Shown: piece after piece, positions 4,816 to 12,272 of the stretch
Numbering within the stretch: position 1 is the first letter of the stretch
How the letters are laid out: the number at the start of each line of letters is the position of its first letter
From: Comamonas halotolerans
Lineage (GTDB): Bacteria > Pseudomonadota > Gammaproteobacteria > Burkholderiales > Burkholderiaceae_C
NCBI RefSeq assembly: GCF_030162935.1
Contig: NZ_JASAUZ010000067.1
Coordinates: 62,001-126,000 of the forward strand
DNA length: 64,000 bases
Direction of reading: 5' to 3'
Notes under the pieces: generated by a model
What the model was told of the DNA's origin: nothing
Database searches by the model: none
Seen by the model: the letters and a program-made list of their open reading frames with translations, nothing else
Position numbers and translations under genes: made by a program

Positions 4816-5835
4816 ATGAAAATCTTGCTCACAGGCGGTGCCGGCTATATCGGCTCTCATACTGCTGTCGAACTTCTCAACGCTGGGCACGAGGTTGTCA
4901 TCTACGACAACTTCAGCAATAGCCGCCCCGAAGCCATTGATCGTGTTGAACAGATCACCGGGGGCAAGCTGACTTGGGTTGAAGGTGACGTTCGCGACCA
5001 AACGCTGGTCGAGAAAACCCTGAACACATACGCTATTGACAGCGTGATTCATTTCGCGGGCAAAAAAGCCGTAGGCGAATCCGTTGCACAACCCCTTGAC
5101 TATTTTGACAACAACGTCAACGGCACCTTGGTGCTGCTGAGGGCCATGCAAACAGCTGGTGTCAAGAATCTGGTCTTCAGCTCATCTGCCACCGTTTACG
5201 GTTCACCCCGATACCTGCCACTGGATGAAAAGCATCCAACCTCGGTCACCAATCCCTATGGGCGCACCAAGCTTTTTGTCGAAGAAATCTTGGCCGACCT
5301 GTTCCATGCAGACCCCAGCTGGTCCATCATCGTTCTGCGCTATTTCAATCCTATTGGAGCGCACCCCAGCGGACTGATTGGCGAAGACCCCTCCGACATT
5401 CCCAACAACTTGCTGCCCTATATTGCTCAAGTAGCGGTTGGACGACGCGCAAGCATTCAGGTGTTTGGCAATGACTATCCAACCCCTGATGGCACAGGCG
5501 TGCGTGACTACATCCATGTGACGGATCTGGCTGTTGGTCACCTCAGAGCACTAGAAAAAATCCACACACTCCAGCACCCGGAACTGCTGACTATCAATCT
5601 CGGCACAGGGCGTGGTTACAGCGTCTTGGAAGTGATTCATGCCTTCGAGCAAGCCTGCGGCAAAACACTACCACACACATCGGTAGCACGTCGCCCTGGA
5701 GATATTGCAAGCTGCTATGCCAACCCAGAACATGCAAAAACCATGCTCAATTGGCAAGCTCAGCATGATTTATTCACCATGTGTGTAGATACCTGGCGCT
5801 GGCAAAGCCAAAACCCCAACGGCTACAACACCTGA
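4816..5835 (+). CDS. galE: UDP-glucose 4-epimerase
   Basis: The product interconverts UDP-glucose and UDP-galactose using tightly bound NAD+, supplying galactose for LPS or exopolysaccharide. GGAGYIGSH (7-15) binds NAD; SSSATVYG and a YGRTK Tyr-x3-Lys pair form the active site. The 339-aa length equals E. coli GalE. The ATG at 4816 gives the standard MKILLTGGAGYIG start; the open frame extends upstream through the previous terminator and is not coding there. The gene is monocistronic, between terminators at 4739 and 5836. Confidence 0.97.
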   Translation: MKILLTGGAGYIGSHTAVELLNAGHEVVIYDNFSNSRPEAIDRVEQITGGKLTWVEGDVRDQTLVEKTLNTYAIDSVIHFAGKKAVGESVAQPLDYFDNNVNGTLVLLRAMQTAGVKNLVFSSSATVYGSPRYLPLDEKHPTSVTNPYGRTKLFVEEILADLFHADPSWSIIVLRYFNPIGAHPSGLIGEDPSDIPNNLLPYIAQVAVGRRASIQVFGNDYPTPDGTGVRDYIHVTDLAVGHLRALEKIHTLQHPELLTINLGTGRGYSVLEVIHAFEQACGKTLPHTSVARRPGDIASCYANPEHAKTMLNWQAQHDLFTMCVDTWRWQSQNPNGYNT

Positions 5836-6550: not shown

Positions 6551-7303
6551 TTACAACCCCCAGTCAGGAACAGGCTGCTGACGCAGCTCCGCACGCAGAG
6601 ACGGATAGTCGGGGCAAGCAGAGGCAACCACTGCCCAAAAACGCGGACTGTGATCCATCACGCGAAGATGCGAAAGCTCGTGGATCACCACGTAATCCAG
6701 CACCGGCAGGCGAAAGTGCAGCAAACGCCAGTTCAGCATGATGCTGCCATCCGCCTTCGCGCTGCCCCAACGGGTACGTGCATTGGACAAGCGCAGACTT
6801 TGCCATCGCACACCCAGGTCTGGCGAAAAACGTTGCAGCCGCTGCGTAAACAGCGTGCGCGCATGGCGCAGCCACCAAGCGTTAACCAAAGCGCGGACAT
6901 TCGCAGGCGTAGCGTCCACAGGTAACCTCAGGTGAAGCACCCAGCGGTTTTCAGCCACCGTAAAAAGCTCTCCACCACGCGCTGCTGCAGGATTCAGCTG
7001 CAATTGCAGTTGGCCGCCCAAGTAGGGCAGGCTCGCGCCATGACGCCACTCAACACACGGTGTTTGCAGGCTGCGGACTTCTCGCTCATTCAGCTTCGCC
7101 AAGACCCATCGCGCCTTATCCTGCAGGGCAGATTCAATATGGTTCATGCTGACGCGCAAAGGTGCACGTACTGTCAGGCCGCTGTCGCTGACTTCCAGGC
7201 CGATGCTGCGCCGGCTGCTGCGCACCAACAAATAAGCCACGCGGACAGGCCCCAAAGGGGTACTGTGCGTGGCTTGTGGATGAGAAAACGCTGGCGTATT
7301 CAA
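6551..7303 (-). CDS. YgjP/DUF45-type M48-like metallopeptidase
   Basis: The 250-aa cytoplasmic protein has the zinc-peptidase signature HELSH (208-212) followed by VMDHSPRFW (215-223), and upstream TRWGSAKADGSIMLNWRLL. This arrangement defines the YgjP/COG1451 family related to SprT and WSS1. Substrates are unknown in most bacteria. It overlaps plsC by 4 bp and so is co-transcribed with it, a common arrangement in this bacterial group. No signal peptide or membrane segment is seen. Confidence 0.88.
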   Translation of the reverse strand: MNTPAFSHPQATHSTPLGPVRVAYLLVRSSRRSIGLEVSDSGLTVRAPLRVSMNHIESALQDKARWVLAKLNEREVRSLQTPCVEWRHGASLPYLGGQLQLQLNPAAARGGELFTVAENRWVLHLRLPVDATPANVRALVNAWWLRHARTLFTQRLQRFSPDLGVRWQSLRLSNARTRWGSAKADGSIMLNWRLLHFRLPVLDYVVIHELSHLRVMDHSPRFWAVVASACPDYPSLRAELRQQPVPDWGL

Positions 7304-8088
7304 GCTTCGGGACTACGCTGTGTGATGGCCGCTGCAGGGGCTGCAGGGGCTGCAGGATATGCATCAGGATCCAAACGGTGCATTTCACTTTCGATCCAGT
7401 TTTGGACTTCCACCATCAGTTCCTCATGTTTGCGGCCCGTACTGGCAATCATGGGACCAATCGAGACATCGACCACGCCTGGAGTCTTCACAAAAGACTT
7501 TCGAGGCCAGCACTTGGCAGACGTCACGGCAATCGGCACCACAGGCACGCCCGTCATGATGGCAAGGCGCGTGGCGCCGGTCTTGTACTCACCGACTTCG
7601 CCACGTCCCACACGAGTGCCCTCCGGGAACATGATGACCCAGATACCCTGTGCCAATAGGCGCTTGCCTTGCTCTACCACCTTGTGAAAAGCACGCGAAC
7701 CATGTTTGCGGTCAATATGAATCATGTCCAGACTGCCGATCGACCATCCAAAGAAAGGAATGCTGAGCAACTCTTTCTTGAAGACATAAGCCAGTGCGCG
7801 CGGCATGATGGCAGGCATCAGAAAAGTTTCGTATGTGGACTGATGCTTGCAGAGCAACACCACGCCCTGCTGACTATCAGTAGGCAGGTTTTCCATGCCT
7901 TGAACACGATATTTCACACCACAGAACCAGCCAGCGCTATCCACACTCAGCTTCAGCCAGGCGCGTGCAATCTTCCAGCGTAACGCTGGAGAGGCGCCAA
8001 ACACTCGCACCAGCAAAATCAGCAAGGTGTAGGGAATAACAGTGATGCCCATCCACAGCATGTGGATCAAAGAGCGAATAAAAGACAT
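7300..8088 (-). CDS. plsC: 1-acyl-sn-glycerol-3-phosphate acyltransferase
   Basis: This membrane enzyme acylates lysophosphatidic acid to phosphatidic acid in phospholipid synthesis. An N-terminal hydrophobic segment (about 8-30) anchors it. The acyltransferase motif is KHQSTYE, an HX4E version (His82, Glu87) of the usual HX4D, and FPEGTR (154-159) binds glycerol phosphate. The HX4E form with KHQS context is, to my knowledge, usual in betaproteobacterial PlsC, so activity is expected. It follows the gmhB-like gene by 54 bp on the same strand and overlaps the YgjP-type gene by 4 bp. Confidence 0.93.
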   Translation of the reverse strand: MSFIRSLIHMLWMGITVIPYTLLILLVRVFGASPALRWKIARAWLKLSVDSAGWFCGVKYRVQGMENLPTDSQQGVVLLCKHQSTYETFLMPAIMPRALAYVFKKELLSIPFFGWSIGSLDMIHIDRKHGSRAFHKVVEQGKRLLAQGIWVIMFPEGTRVGRGEVGEYKTGATRLAIMTGVPVVPIAVTSAKCWPRKSFVKTPGVVDVSIGPMIASTGRKHEELMVEVQNWIESEMHRLDPDAYPAAPAAPAAAITQRSPEA

Positions 8089-8142: not shown

Positions 8143-8700
8143 TCACGGTCTCGGAGCTGCTGGAGGCGTTTGTACATCTGGTGCCAGCGCGTCAGCCAAC
8201 GCTTTCCAACTGACGTATCGAGGTACATCCTGAAAGACTCCGTTCAATGGAGCGGTTTCTCCCAGTTGTAGCCATACAACGTGCGCACCTATCGCTTCGC
8301 CAGCTTCGAGGTGCTTCGTGTCTTGCCCAACCACCCAGATCTCATCTGGCTCGGCACCATAGCGCGCTGCAATTTGCTGCAACAATCCCGGTGCGGGTTT
8401 GCGACAGCTGCAACCTTCTTCCGGTGTATGCGGGCAGAAGAAAACCGCTTCAATGCGCGCGCCCACCGCAGCCAATTCACGCTGCATTCGCAAGTGAATG
8501 GCATTGAGGTCATTCAGATCAAAACTGCCGCGCCCCAAGCCCGGCTGGTTGGTTGCCAGCGTTACATGCCAGCCACCACGATTGAGCTGCGCCACCGCAT
8601 CCAGCACGCCCTCCTGAAGCACCCAATCCTTCAGCGCCACGATGGAGTCCTCACCCTCGATATTGAGGGTGCCGATACGATCCAGGATGGCAAGCTTCAT
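8143..8700 (-). CDS. GmhB-like HAD-IIIA protein with altered catalytic residues
   Basis: Length (185 aa) and layout match D-glycero-beta-D-manno-heptose-1,7-bisphosphate 7-phosphatase (GmhB), which acts in LPS inner-core heptose synthesis. The zinc site Cys89, His91, Cys97, Cys99, motif II ATNQPG (49-54) and motif III Lys101 are kept. However, motif I reads LDRIGT: the nucleophile Asp7 is present but the acid/base Asp two residues on is Ile9 (codon ATC). Motif IV reads VGQDTKHLEAG where GmhB has VGDxxxDLxA, so Gln126 and His130 replace the acidic metal ligands. Phosphatase activity is doubtful; it may be a regulatory or non-catalytic descendant. It sits upstream of plsC. Confidence 0.82.
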   Translation of the reverse strand: MKLAILDRIGTLNIEGEDSIVALKDWVLQEGVLDAVAQLNRGGWHVTLATNQPGLGRGSFDLNDLNAIHLRMQRELAAVGARIEAVFFCPHTPEEGCSCRKPAPGLLQQIAARYGAEPDEIWVVGQDTKHLEAGEAIGAHVVWLQLGETAPLNGVFQDVPRYVSWKALADALAPDVQTPPAAPRP

Positions 8701-8802: not shown

Positions 8803-10023
8803 TTACGCACCCATCCAGCGACGCAAGGCCACCGATGCGTTGGTGCCACCAAAGCCAAAGCTGTTGGAGAGCACGGTATTGAGCGCAGCATCACAGGTCT
8901 TGGTCACCAAAGGCATGGTACCCAAAGCTTCATCTGGAGTTTCCACATTCACCGATCCGGCAATGAATTGCTTGTCCAGCATGATCAGGCAATAGATCGC
9001 TTCTTGCACGCCTGTAGCACCCAAGGAGTGGCCCGTCAACGACTTGGTTGAAGAGAAAGGAGGCACCTTCTCTCCAAACAGCGTCTGCATGGCACGCACT
9101 TCCTGCATATCACCCACGGGGGTCGATGTGCCATGCGTGTTGATGTAGTCGATCGTCCCGTCCACGGTTTCCATGGCTTGCTTCATGCAGGCTACAGCTC
9201 CATCGCCCGAGGGCGCCACCATGTCTTCACCATCGGAAGTAGCACCGAAGCCCACAATTTCAGCCAGAATGTTGGCGCCGCGCGCCTGCGCGTGCTCCAG
9301 ACTTTCCAGCACCAGAGCGCCGCCACCGCCAGCAATCACAAAACCATCGCGGTTGGCGTCATAGGCACGTGCAGCTTTTTCGGGCGTTTCGTTGTACTTG
9401 CTGGACATGGCACCCATGCCATCAAACAGCAACGACATGCCCCAGGACAGTTCTTCACCGCCTCCAGCAAACATCACATCCTGCATACCCCAGGCAATTT
9501 GCTGGGCCGCGGCGCCAATGCAATGCGCAGAAGTCGAGCACGCAGAGGTAATGGAGTAATTGATGCCCTTGACCTTGAAATTCGTGGCCAGGCACGCCGA
9601 AACAGTCGAGCTCATGCAACGCGTGACCTGATAAGGCCCCACACGGCGGATACCTTTTTCACGCAAGGTGTCAGCAGCTTCAATCTGGTTGGCTGGCGAG
9701 CCCCCACCAGAGCCCATGATCAGGCCGGTGCGCGGATGGCTCACCATCTCAGGAGTCAACCCCGCCTGGGCAATCGCGTCTTCCAAAGCGATTTGAGCAA
9801 AAGCGGCTGCATCGCCCATAAAACGCAACTGCTTGCGGTCAATACGCGCTTCAACGTCGATCTCGGGAATGCCAGCCACTTGACTGCGCATACCCAGCTC
9901 TTTGAACTGAGGCATGGCTTTGATGCCGGAGCGGCCTTCCCGCAGGGAGGTCTCCACAGTTGCCAAGTCGTTACCAATGCACGAGACAATGCCCGCACCC
10001 GTGATCACTACGCGTTTTTTCAT
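8803..10023 (-). CDS. fabB: 3-oxoacyl-ACP synthase I (beta-ketoacyl-ACP synthase)
   Basis: FabB condenses malonyl-ACP with acyl-ACP and is needed for unsaturated fatty acid synthesis. The 406-aa thiolase-fold protein has the nucleophile in SACSTSAHC (about Cys162) and two catalytic histidines, in [11 protein letters not shown] and [12 protein letters not shown]. It starts inside the fabA stop (4-bp overlap), the classical fabA-fabB operon that commits the cell to anaerobic-type unsaturated fatty acid synthesis. No regulator gene is adjacent. Confidence 0.97.
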
Positions 10024-10544
10024 GCCGCAGTCCCTTGACCATCACCTTCGCGCAGGAACAGACCCACGCGCAGATCGTTGGCCACATAAATTTCTTTGCC
10101 GTCTGCAAACAAACGTGCATCACCAATCGCCATATTCAGCTTGCGCTTGATCACGCGCTTGATATCGATCTCATAGCGCACCAGCTTCACATCTGGGCCG
10201 ACTTCACCAGTGAACTTCACTTCTCCAGCACCCAAAGCACGGCCACGACCCGGCAATTGCAGCCAAGTCAGGTAAAAACCGATCAGCTGCCACATGGCAT
10301 CCAGACCCAGGCAACCGGGCATGACAGGATCGCCTTGAAAATGGCACTTGAAGAACCACAGATCCGGGTTGACATCCAATTCAGCCACGATCTTGCCCAG
10401 GCCATGCTCTCCGCCATCTTCGGAAATATGGGTGATGCGGTCAAACATCAACATGGGTGGCAGGGGCAAACGTCCGCTATCGGGCTTAAACAACTTGCCT
10501 TCACCAGAAGCGATCAGTTGTTCATAGGAAAAAGATTCAGCCAT
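10020..10544 (-). CDS. fabA: 3-hydroxydecanoyl-ACP dehydratase/isomerase
   Basis: FabA dehydrates 3-hydroxydecanoyl-ACP and isomerises the product to the cis-3 isomer, starting unsaturated fatty acid synthesis. The 174-aa hot-dog protein has the active-site pair His68 (in [13 protein letters not shown]) and Asp82 (in LGLDAMWQL). The ATG at 10544 gives the usual [10 protein letters not shown] start; the open frame continues upstream to 10628 without a family match. It overlaps fabB by 4 bp. A small inverted repeat lies in its leader at 10563-10577. Confidence 0.97.
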
Positions 10545-10562
10545 TTTTCTAACTTGCTCCGC

Positions 10563-10577
10563 AGCGGCTAGGCCGCT
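10563..10577 (-). promoter_or_regulatory. Short inverted repeat in fabA leader
   Basis: AGCGGC and GCCGCT flank a 3-base centre, about 20-35 bases upstream of the fabA ATG. It could be a small hairpin or an operator half-pair. There is no T tract, so it is not a terminator. Its role is unknown. Confidence 0.3.
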
Positions 10578-10715
10578 ACTTGGTTTCTCGTGTATGTAAT
10601 CGCGACAGTTTATACATGTGCTGCGCACAGCCGCACATTATGAAAGTTCAGAAGAGACTTGTAGGCAGAAAGCCCCAGCAAACTTCACATAACGTATCAA
10701 TCACACCTAGTTTTC

Positions 10716-12272
10716 TCAAATTTTCTTGCGTAACTTGGCACACCAAGCTACGACAGCTACGCAAAACATCCACAAAGGCCAAAGCCCCCATCGCGACACC
10801 CATAAAGCAAAAGGTGTCACACCATCACGCCCATGCACCTGCGCCAACAGCACGTCGCGGGTCGCGGAAGGCAAAGCTGCCGCAACAGAGCCACGGTGAT
10901 CAATCACCGCTGTAGCCCCCGTATTGGTGGCGCGCAGCATGGGACGCTCAAACTCCAAGGCACGCATGCGACTGATCTGCAAATGTTGATCAATCGCGAT
11001 ACTGTCGCCAAACCAGGCAATATTGCTGACATTCACGAATACCGTGGGAGCTTTGGAAGCGTCCGCAAAGCGTGCCCCCAGCTCCTCACCAAACAAGTCT
11101 TCGTAGCAAATATTGGGAGCCCATCGCTCGCCGCGCCACAGCAGAGGCGCCTGCCCCACGCTGCCACGCGCAAAGTCGCCCAAGGGAATGTTCATCATAC
11201 GAACAAACCAATGAAACAACGGGGGAATGAACTCACCAAAGGGCACCAAATGGTGTTTGTCGTACCTATATTCTGGCATTTCCCCAGGAATCCAGCCCAC
11301 CACTGCATTGCTATAGCCCTGCACTTCATTCCCCAAAGGCATGCCAACCAGAGCCGCCGACTGGCTTTCGGGTTGCCGGTAAGGCGCCGACACCGCTTCC
11401 AGATAGCCTTTTGGCAATTGCTGTGGCAGCAGTGGCAAAGCCGTCTCAGGCAGTACCACCAGTTCGGCTTGCGGCTGCAGCAAATGCTCACCATACCATT
11501 GCAGAGCTTCTGCAATGCCGCCGCCCGGAATGAATTTTTCATCCTGCGCAATATTTCCCTGCAGCAAAGCCACGGAAACCGGTGTGCGCCCGTCTGGCTG
11601 CAAAGCCTGTTTCTGACCCAGCCAGGCTAAAGCCCAAACTATGGCTGCAGACAACACCCACATTGCCGTCCATTGGGGACGCAGCGCCAAATGCTTGGCT
11701 TGAACCATGAGCATGGACAATCCCGCCGCAATCAGACCCGTTCCGTACACACCCAACCACCTAGGCCACACTGATAAAGGTCCATCCACATGGGCGTAGC
11801 CAATCGCCCCCCAGGGAAAGCCTGTCCACAAGGTTCCACGTGCAAGTTCAGCGAATGTCCAGCACGCAGCAAACAAAAACACGGCTTGCCAGCCACGTTG
11901 TGCCCATCGCTTCCACACCCACAGCATCAGTGCATAGTAGCTACCCAGAAAAGCTGCCAGCGCCAGCACAGCCAATCCCGCCAAAGGGCCTGGCAAACCG
12001 CCGTAGGTGTGCATGGAGATAAACAGCCACCAGAATGTGGCTGCCAGCCAGGTAGTGGCAAATATGCCCCCTAACCAGGCGGCTTGTTTACAGGAGGGGG
12101 CTTTGTGAAGCCCCAGGCACAGAACGCTCAGAGAAAGTATTTGCAACCACCAAAGTGGTTGCCCGCCTACCGGCCAAGCCAGCGATGCTGCCTGCAAAGC
12201 TCCAGCCAGCGGCATGACCACCATCCAGCTCCATGGGCGAACATGGTGCACCGCACTGTTCACAACACTCAT
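10716..12272 (-). CDS. lnt: apolipoprotein N-acyltransferase
   Basis: Lnt adds the third acyl chain to the N-terminal cysteine of lipoproteins in the inner membrane. The 518-aa protein has about seven N-terminal hydrophobic segments and then a periplasmic nitrilase-like domain. The catalytic triad is Glu276 (VLPETALP), Lys339 (YDKHHLVPFGEF) and Cys389 (ICYEDLFG). It overlaps corC by 4 bp; this pairing is very common in proteobacteria. A gap of 171 bp separates its stop from fabA. Several putative lipoproteins in this window are possible substrates. Confidence 0.96.
   Translation of the reverse strand: MSVVNSAVHHVRPWSWMVVMPLAGALQAASLAWPVGGQPLWWLQILSLSVLCLGLHKAPSCKQAAWLGGIFATTWLAATFWWLFISMHTYGGLPGPLAGLAVLALAAFLGSYYALMLWVWKRWAQRGWQAVFLFAACWTFAELARGTLWTGFPWGAIGYAHVDGPLSVWPRWLGVYGTGLIAAGLSMLMVQAKHLALRPQWTAMWVLSAAIVWALAWLGQKQALQPDGRTPVSVALLQGNIAQDEKFIPGGGIAEALQWYGEHLLQPQAELVVLPETALPLLPQQLPKGYLEAVSAPYRQPESQSAALVGMPLGNEVQGYSNAVVGWIPGEMPEYRYDKHHLVPFGEFIPPLFHWFVRMMNIPLGDFARGSVGQAPLLWRGERWAPNICYEDLFGEELGARFADASKAPTVFVNVSNIAWFGDSIAIDQHLQISRMRALEFERPMLRATNTGATAVIDHRGSVAAALPSATRDVLLAQVHGRDGVTPFALWVSRWGLWPLWMFCVAVVAWCAKLRKKI

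Follow-up and report, generated by a model that had tools for sequence, protein, structure and literature searches.

A GmhB-like gene in a gmhB-plsC arrangement

The window, meaning the whole stretch of 64,000 nucleotides of Comamonas halotolerans DNA that was analysed, contains on its minus strand (8143-8700) an open frame with an ATG start that encodes a GmhB-like HAD protein of 185 aa, the N-terminus of which reads MKLAILDRIGTLN. A preliminary description of this DNA had reported a full open frame lying in the gmhB-plsC arrangement, and both are present. The genes and residues of interest are listed below in window coordinates.

6551..7303, minus strand: gene with a YgjP-like metallopeptidase domain, overlapping the plsC end (PF01863, E 2.1e-51)
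7300..8088, minus strand: plsC-like 1-acylglycerol-3-phosphate acyltransferase, next gene downstream of the gmhB-like gene (TIGR00530, E 6e-29, 100.4 bits, cut-off 102.95)
8143..8700, minus strand: GmhB-like HAD-IIIA protein of 185 aa, three of five catalytic positions replaced, candidate pseudo-GmhB (profiles, alignment, AlphaFold2 model)
8311..8313, minus strand: His130 codon, second motif IV position, Asp in catalytic GmhB (sequence, alignment)
8323..8325, minus strand: Gln126 codon, first motif IV position, Asp in catalytic GmhB (sequence, alignment)
8398..8400, minus strand: Lys101 codon, HAD motif III, kept in the window protein (alignment)
8404..8436, minus strand: zinc loop C89-x-H91 ... 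C97-x-C99, invariant in 330/330 aligned loci (alignment)
8674..8676, minus strand: Ile9 codon, the DxD general acid/base Asp in catalytic GmhB (sequence, alignment)
8680..8682, minus strand: Asp7 codon, HAD nucleophile, kept (sequence, alignment)
8803..10023, minus strand: fabB, immediately upstream of the gmhB-like gene (PRK07967, over cut-off)
10020..10628, minus strand: fabA (TIGR01749, over cut-off)
10716..12272, minus strand: lnt, apolipoprotein N-acyltransferase (TIGR00546, over cut-off)

Family assignment and fold

The window protein is a GmhB homologue. It matches the NCBIfam profile PRK08942 with an E-value of 8.9e-47 and 158.9 bits, and because the curated equivalog cut-off is 178 the NCBI equivalog rule would not name it GmhB. 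With the HAD-IIIA superfamily profile TIGR01662 it scores 84.8 bits against a cut-off of 44.6. By sequence the best PDB matches are 4pnh and 3l8h, both GmhB according to their entry titles. An AlphaFold2 model (pLDDT 88.9, pTM 0.85), computed from an alignment of 56 sequences with the window protein among them, has the B. bronchiseptica GmhB 3l8h as its closest PDB fold (TM 0.88, rmsd 1.9, Foldseek E 7.1e-17).

The catalytic GmhB proteins of B. bronchiseptica (3l8h), B. thailandensis (4pnh) and E. coli (2gmw) share with the window protein the zinc loop, Asp7, Asn51 and Arg100-Lys101; the plsC-adjoining locus is likewise held in common with catalytic GmhB, as is the fold with 3l8h. However, Asp9, Asp126 and Asp130 of the catalytic proteins are replaced in the window protein, which falls under the equivalog cut-off and belongs to a genome with no detected heptose pathway. 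The N-terminal HAD-IIIA histidinol-phosphatase domain of HisB (2fpr) belongs to the same HAD-IIIA profile family and has the same fold, yet identity to it is about 25%, the catalytic acids are replaced in the window protein, and the HisB dehydratase domain is absent from its 185 aa.

Active-site residues

HAD phosphatase chemistry uses a general acid/base and the motif IV acids. Asp7, Lys101 and the zinc cysteines are intact in the window protein, as had been noted from the sequence, and the zinc ligands form the expected CxH...CxC (C89, H91, C97, C99). The earlier residue numbers for the replaced acids (Ile9, Gln126 and His130) proved exact in sequence and alignment. According to a passage in PMC8204981, GmhB is defined by DxD in motif I and (G/S)Dxx(N/T)D in motif IV; the window protein has Asp7-x-Ile9 and G125-Q126-D-T-K-H130 at these places. 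In the alignment, the 65 intact copies from HldD-positive genomes have Asp at position 9. Judged by its residues, the window protein is not expected to carry out HAD phosphatase chemistry as known, and the replacements would imply that phosphatase activity has been lost.

It had been proposed to look for Ile9 and Gln126 in relatives. Both residues, together with His130, are shared by the window protein and the seven Comamonas relatives nearest to it (L003-L009). A sequencing error at the replaced codons was considered and ruled out, because other named Comamonas strains, of C. avium, C. kerstersii and C. aquatica, carry the same changes. Lys101, which the window protein keeps, is missing from some relatives such as C. 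kerstersii CRLP.

Heptose pathway genes in Comamonas

The genome of the window strain has 4.05 Mb and is rated 100% complete. With this genome included, 53 Comamonas genomes were searched, 52 of which contain a gmhB homologue; absence of a pathway gene here and below is absence over the HMM threshold. HldE domain II was found over cut-off in 0/53 genomes, with weaker matches in four, and HldD likewise in 0/53. Weak matches to the HldD profile occur in all 53 (best score 127.6 bits, cut-off 274.6 bits). Three of them are in the window strain's own genome, one being the epimerase gene at about 4822-5718 of the window. GmhA was not found over its cut-off of 209.45 bits in any of the 53 genomes. 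Sub-cut-off GmhA matches, present in 52, reach at most 114.4 bits, except for those of G020 and G042 at about 199, and we take the weak matches to be a putative DiaA-like relative. A WaaC search at E 1e-40 gave no match in the own genome.

GmhA, HldE and HldD, with which a GmhB of the heptose pathway would be expected to co-occur, are all without a match over cut-off in this genome, as is WaaC, so that no substrate for GmhB is expected. The preliminary description had concluded that heptose synthesis would need another phosphatase. This is not supported: where the pathway genes are not found, synthesis of ADP-heptose is not to be expected, and the need for a substitute phosphatase does not arise. 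The suggested second, intact gmhB is not found in the own genome either, where the sole other match (L002) has 30% identity over 68 residues (E 7e-4).

In all 48 Comamonas genomes fetched, the main copy lacks one or more of the five catalytic residues (7, 9, 101, 126 and 130). These 48 main copies come from the 52 genomes with a match, leaving out G012 (a fragment), G048, G049 and G052. The commonest pattern is Asp7-Asp9-Lys101-Ser126-His130 (24 copies), while Ile9 with Gln126 is the pattern of the window's clade. Eight Comamonas copies (L325-L332) carry Glu7, Ala50, Asp or Ala101, Arg126 and Leu130, so that almost all of the active site is replaced, with all zinc ligands and the reading frame kept. 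Arg100 and Lys101 are also lost from these eight, and a single ligand common to all copies is therefore not supported.

The only intact copies among those fetched from Comamonas are second copies in G020 and G042, where the intact GmhB lies on the same contig as GmhA-like and HldE-like genes, all within about 17 kb. The two genes score slightly under their cut-offs. These loci (L112, L113, L336, L337, L340, L341) have the appearance of a heptose island, with no HldD over cut-off.

Survey of the family

A set of 49 genomes of named relatives, corresponding to 49 of 80 named loci, gave an HldE match (E 1e-20) in 23. The gmhB gene is intact in 33 of the 49, 22 of them with an HldE match, and mutated in 16. 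Among the mutated, HldE is matched only in Roseateles violae (L065; 160 bits, below the cut-off). The nucleophile is changed to Gly in L062, L063, L065 and L066 (Paucibacter, Burkholderiales bacterium C2, Roseateles and Inhella).

A broader sample of 200 family genomes from 141 genera was searched with the profiles PRK08942, HldE domain II, HldD and WaaC. Matches were obtained for gmhB in 192 genomes (E 1e-12), for HldE in 97 (E 1e-20; 71 over cut-off), for HldD in 75 (E 1e-50; 71 over cut-off) and for WaaC in 95 (E 1e-40; 82 over cut-off). HldE and HldD were both unmatched in 102 genomes, and gmhB is kept in 95 of these; annotation from gmhB alone, which is annotated as a heptose-synthesis gene, can consequently mislead. 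Among the eight genomes without a gmhB match are two pairs (G187/G288 and G196/G296), each pair being all that was sampled of its genus.

Eight genomes (G138, G177, G195, G203, G240, G259, G261 and G295) have WaaC, heptosyltransferase I, over cut-off without HldE or HldD. Either a different sugar is transferred in them or the pathway was missed, and loss of heptose is less certain in these eight of the 102.

Catalytic residues were tallied for one plsC-linked copy per genome in 178 genomes, which omits the 14 of the 200 with no plsC match in the fetched flanks and the eight with no gmhB. All five catalytic positions are intact in 101 linked copies, and 77 are mutated. Where HldE and HldD are both present, 64 are intact and four mutated (4/68), whereas where both are absent 27 are intact and 59 mutated (59/86). 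Genomes with HldE alone have nine intact and 14 mutated copies, and HldD alone accompanies one intact and no mutated copy. When only the acids at 7, 9 and 126 are counted, the ratio of mutated to intact is 54:32 with both absent versus 3:65 with both present. The 27 intact linked copies in genomes without HldE and HldD indicate that loss of heptose is not always accompanied by loss of catalytic residues. All fetched copies are mutated in 65 of the 95 gmhB-keeping genomes without HldE and HldD, which is an upper count because second copies were only partly fetched in these genomes.

Of the HldE-positive genomes, 18 have a mutated linked copy, and every one of them also carries a further copy in which the full catalytic set is present; by comparison, more than one gmhB match occurs in 25 of the 182 other genomes. 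The additional copy exceeds the GmhB cut-off in 13 genomes; in the remaining five (G129, G135, G228, G254 and G268) it is GmhB-like and under cut-off, at 132-158 bits. These exceptions fit a pseudoenzyme reading of the linked copy. In one genome (G229, locus L189) two gmhB genes stand in tandem, one with LGRDG (nucleophile lost) and one with LDRDG (intact), with a plsC match downstream; it was entered as mutated in the linked tally according to the first copy of the pair.

Association, tree and selection

For 64 intact and four mutated versus 27 intact and 59 mutated copies the Fisher test gives p 1.3e-16, a value not corrected for relatedness. An independent-pairs test had no power, with only two supported pairs, in which HldD changed the same way in 0.6, the opposite way in 0.0 and showed no difference in 1.4 on average. 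We also fitted a two-state model of HldD, and likewise of HldE, to the gmhB gene tree, and in 2000 simulated runs this null reached the observed association 3 times for HldD and 9 times for HldE. The minimum numbers of changes on the tree (268 rows, trait columns removed, L060 left out) are 3 at position 7, 4 at position 9, 9 at position 101, 6 at position 126 and 5 at position 130, and the minimum between the intact and mutated states is 10, gain and loss not being told apart. Change counts and null are rough, because the tree was built from the protein itself, which is short, and is weakly supported.

The full alignment comprises 330 loci with 316 distinct proteins, including second copies and loci outside the family. 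C89, H91, C97 and C99 are identical in all 330 and in 13 further copies. The frames are full-length, encoding 162-221 aa; the shortest, L060, is at a contig edge with its start set too far in. The loop N51-x-x-G54-x-G-x-G58 is held across groups in the alignment.

Pairwise dN/dS within the window's clade is 0.09-0.25 for gmhB and 0.03-0.26 for plsC, with dS near saturation in many pairs. Of 55 same-genus pairs, 33 were kept, the others having no linked copy or no clean alignment of plsC. The median gmhB dN/dS is 0.196 (0.076-0.540) in 12 mutated HldD-lacking pairs (in three of these, one or both genomes match HldE), 0.205 (0.046-0.397) in intact HldD-positive pairs (8/9 pairs with finite dS) and 0.145 in eight intact pairs without HldD. 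In the same three groups, dN of gmhB relative to that of plsC has a median of 1.09, 1.01 and 1.43, respectively. The gmhB protein is maintained by purifying selection, with dN/dS around 0.2 as in catalytic GmhB. Single positions outside the catalytic set do vary: Lys21 is present in 65/65 intact HldD-positive copies versus 10/27 intact copies without HldE and HldD, Ser53 in 64/65 versus 13/27, and Lys21 stays in 38 of 41 members of the Gly7 group.

Interpretation and alternatives

Pseudoenzymes such as pseudokinases and pseudophosphatases conserve a fold from which catalytic residues have been lost and are retained by selection. Both features are found here, in that residues are lost in a conserved orthologous group and the group is maintained by selection. 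The likeness to pseudoenzymes in general lies in the conserved fold with lost catalytic residues, and the difference is that in GmhB the loss recurs and accompanies absence of the pathway. The earlier proposal of a conserved but non-catalytic or re-purposed GmhB stands in so far as the residue losses are common to relatives, the frame is full-length in 330 loci and dN/dS is low; the continued heptose synthesis that went with it is not supported. We consider it probable (about 0.7) that the protein is a recurrent pseudo-GmhB which, the pathway having been lost in Comamonas, is kept for a non-phosphatase role, probably one of binding or scaffolding. The ADP-heptose pathway would have gone from the Comamonas lineage and left GmhB without its known substrate, while the protein was retained for a second job of its zinc-braced HAD fold, putatively the binding of a protein partner or small ligand. 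Released from catalysis, active-site residues would have been replaced repeatedly in separate lineages, and the fold, zinc ligands and N51-x-x-G54-x-G-x-G58 loop would have stayed. Selection on the whole protein together with the conserved zinc and Asn51...Gly54-x-Gly-x-Gly58 loops points to a binding role borne by the fold.

A rival reading is that the protein is still catalytic through a changed HAD mechanism, possibly one without Mg2+, and haloacid dehalogenases offer a loose parallel for HAD chemistry without Mg2+. Asp7, Thr50-Asn51 and Lys101 are kept in the window protein, and His130 is a new common residue: His makes up 66 of the 78 non-acidic residues at position 130, and the 57 distinct plsC-linked His130 copies have Asp7 in 57 and Lys101 in 53. 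However, the nucleophile is Gly in 41 distinct linked proteins and Ala or Ser in L087, L093 and L105, Glu7 occurs in two His130 copies without a plsC match (L150 and L282), C. kerstersii lacks Lys101, and eight Comamonas copies have E7, D or A101, R126 and L130. No single chemistry accounts for all these residue sets, and we regard a changed mechanism as unlikely. That heptose is still made, with another phosphatase such as one of HisB type standing in for GmhB, has a precedent in that some gmhB mutants of other bacteria still form heptose products according to a passage in a review (PMC10221265); as GmhA, HldE, HldD and WaaC are likewise not over cut-off in the own genome, we give this explanation next to no weight.

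Two further explanations dispense with a function of the protein. Translation of gmhB might be needed only for expression of plsC or ygjP downstream, and the gmhB-plsC-ygjP order is indeed recurrent, with a plsC match just downstream of gmhB in 279 of the 330 loci. Yet dN/dS near 0.2 and invariant zinc ligands speak for the protein, gmhB runs straight into ygjP without plsC in L062 and L063, no plsC match flanks any of the eight E7-type Comamonas copies, and in the one of these examined (L329) the gene sits between glyS and hemE; such coupling is improbable as the reason for retention. The gene might also be an ordinary relic of recent pathway loss that is drifting to a pseudogene, as the lower conservation of non-catalytic positions such as Lys21 and Ser53 without HldE and HldD would suggest. 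Against this decay, which we hold to be quite improbable, are the full-length frames in 330 loci, a dN/dS like that of catalytic GmhB, and a loss common to the whole genus and to many genera.

Returning to a pseudo-GmhB kept for a second role, the retention of gmhB in 95 of 102 genomes that lack both HldE and HldD raises the prospect that this job predates the loss of heptose, and a second function older than that loss may be the simplest history. The eight genomes in which gmhB is missing imply that the job is dispensable somewhere. More tentatively, and with rather more doubt than confidence, we suggest that the zinc-braced fold encoded by gmhB in the gmhB-plsC locus performs a second, ancestral function that depends on neither phosphatase chemistry nor heptose. 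This function would become visible only in heptose-losing lineages, where catalysis was stripped away several times. If so, the catalytic GmhBs of heptose-making bacteria may share the same hidden job. Lineages in which the active site went several times while the fold stayed would amount to a natural experiment that separates GmhB catalysis from the second role, and that role becomes testable by deleting a gene on which LPS should not depend. Searches of the open-licence literature found no description of a pseudo-GmhB or of GmhB retention after heptose loss, and nothing on heptose loss in this bacterial group. Pseudoenzymes are known as a kind, and a catalytically dead GmhB kept after loss of heptose, as predicted here from residues, appears to be new.

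Gene neighbours

The neighbours of gmhB, which are plsC, ygjP, lnt and corC with fabAB here or glyQS elsewhere, suggest a connection to envelope or lipid metabolism. PlsC is a candidate partner at most, because gmhB persists without plsC in several genomes. The fabA-fabB pair (8803-10628 of the window) lies between lnt and gmhB, and does so likewise in C. avium, C. kerstersii and C. aquatica (L032-L034). In the Paucibacter locus L062, glyQ and glyS occupy the place of fabA-fabB.
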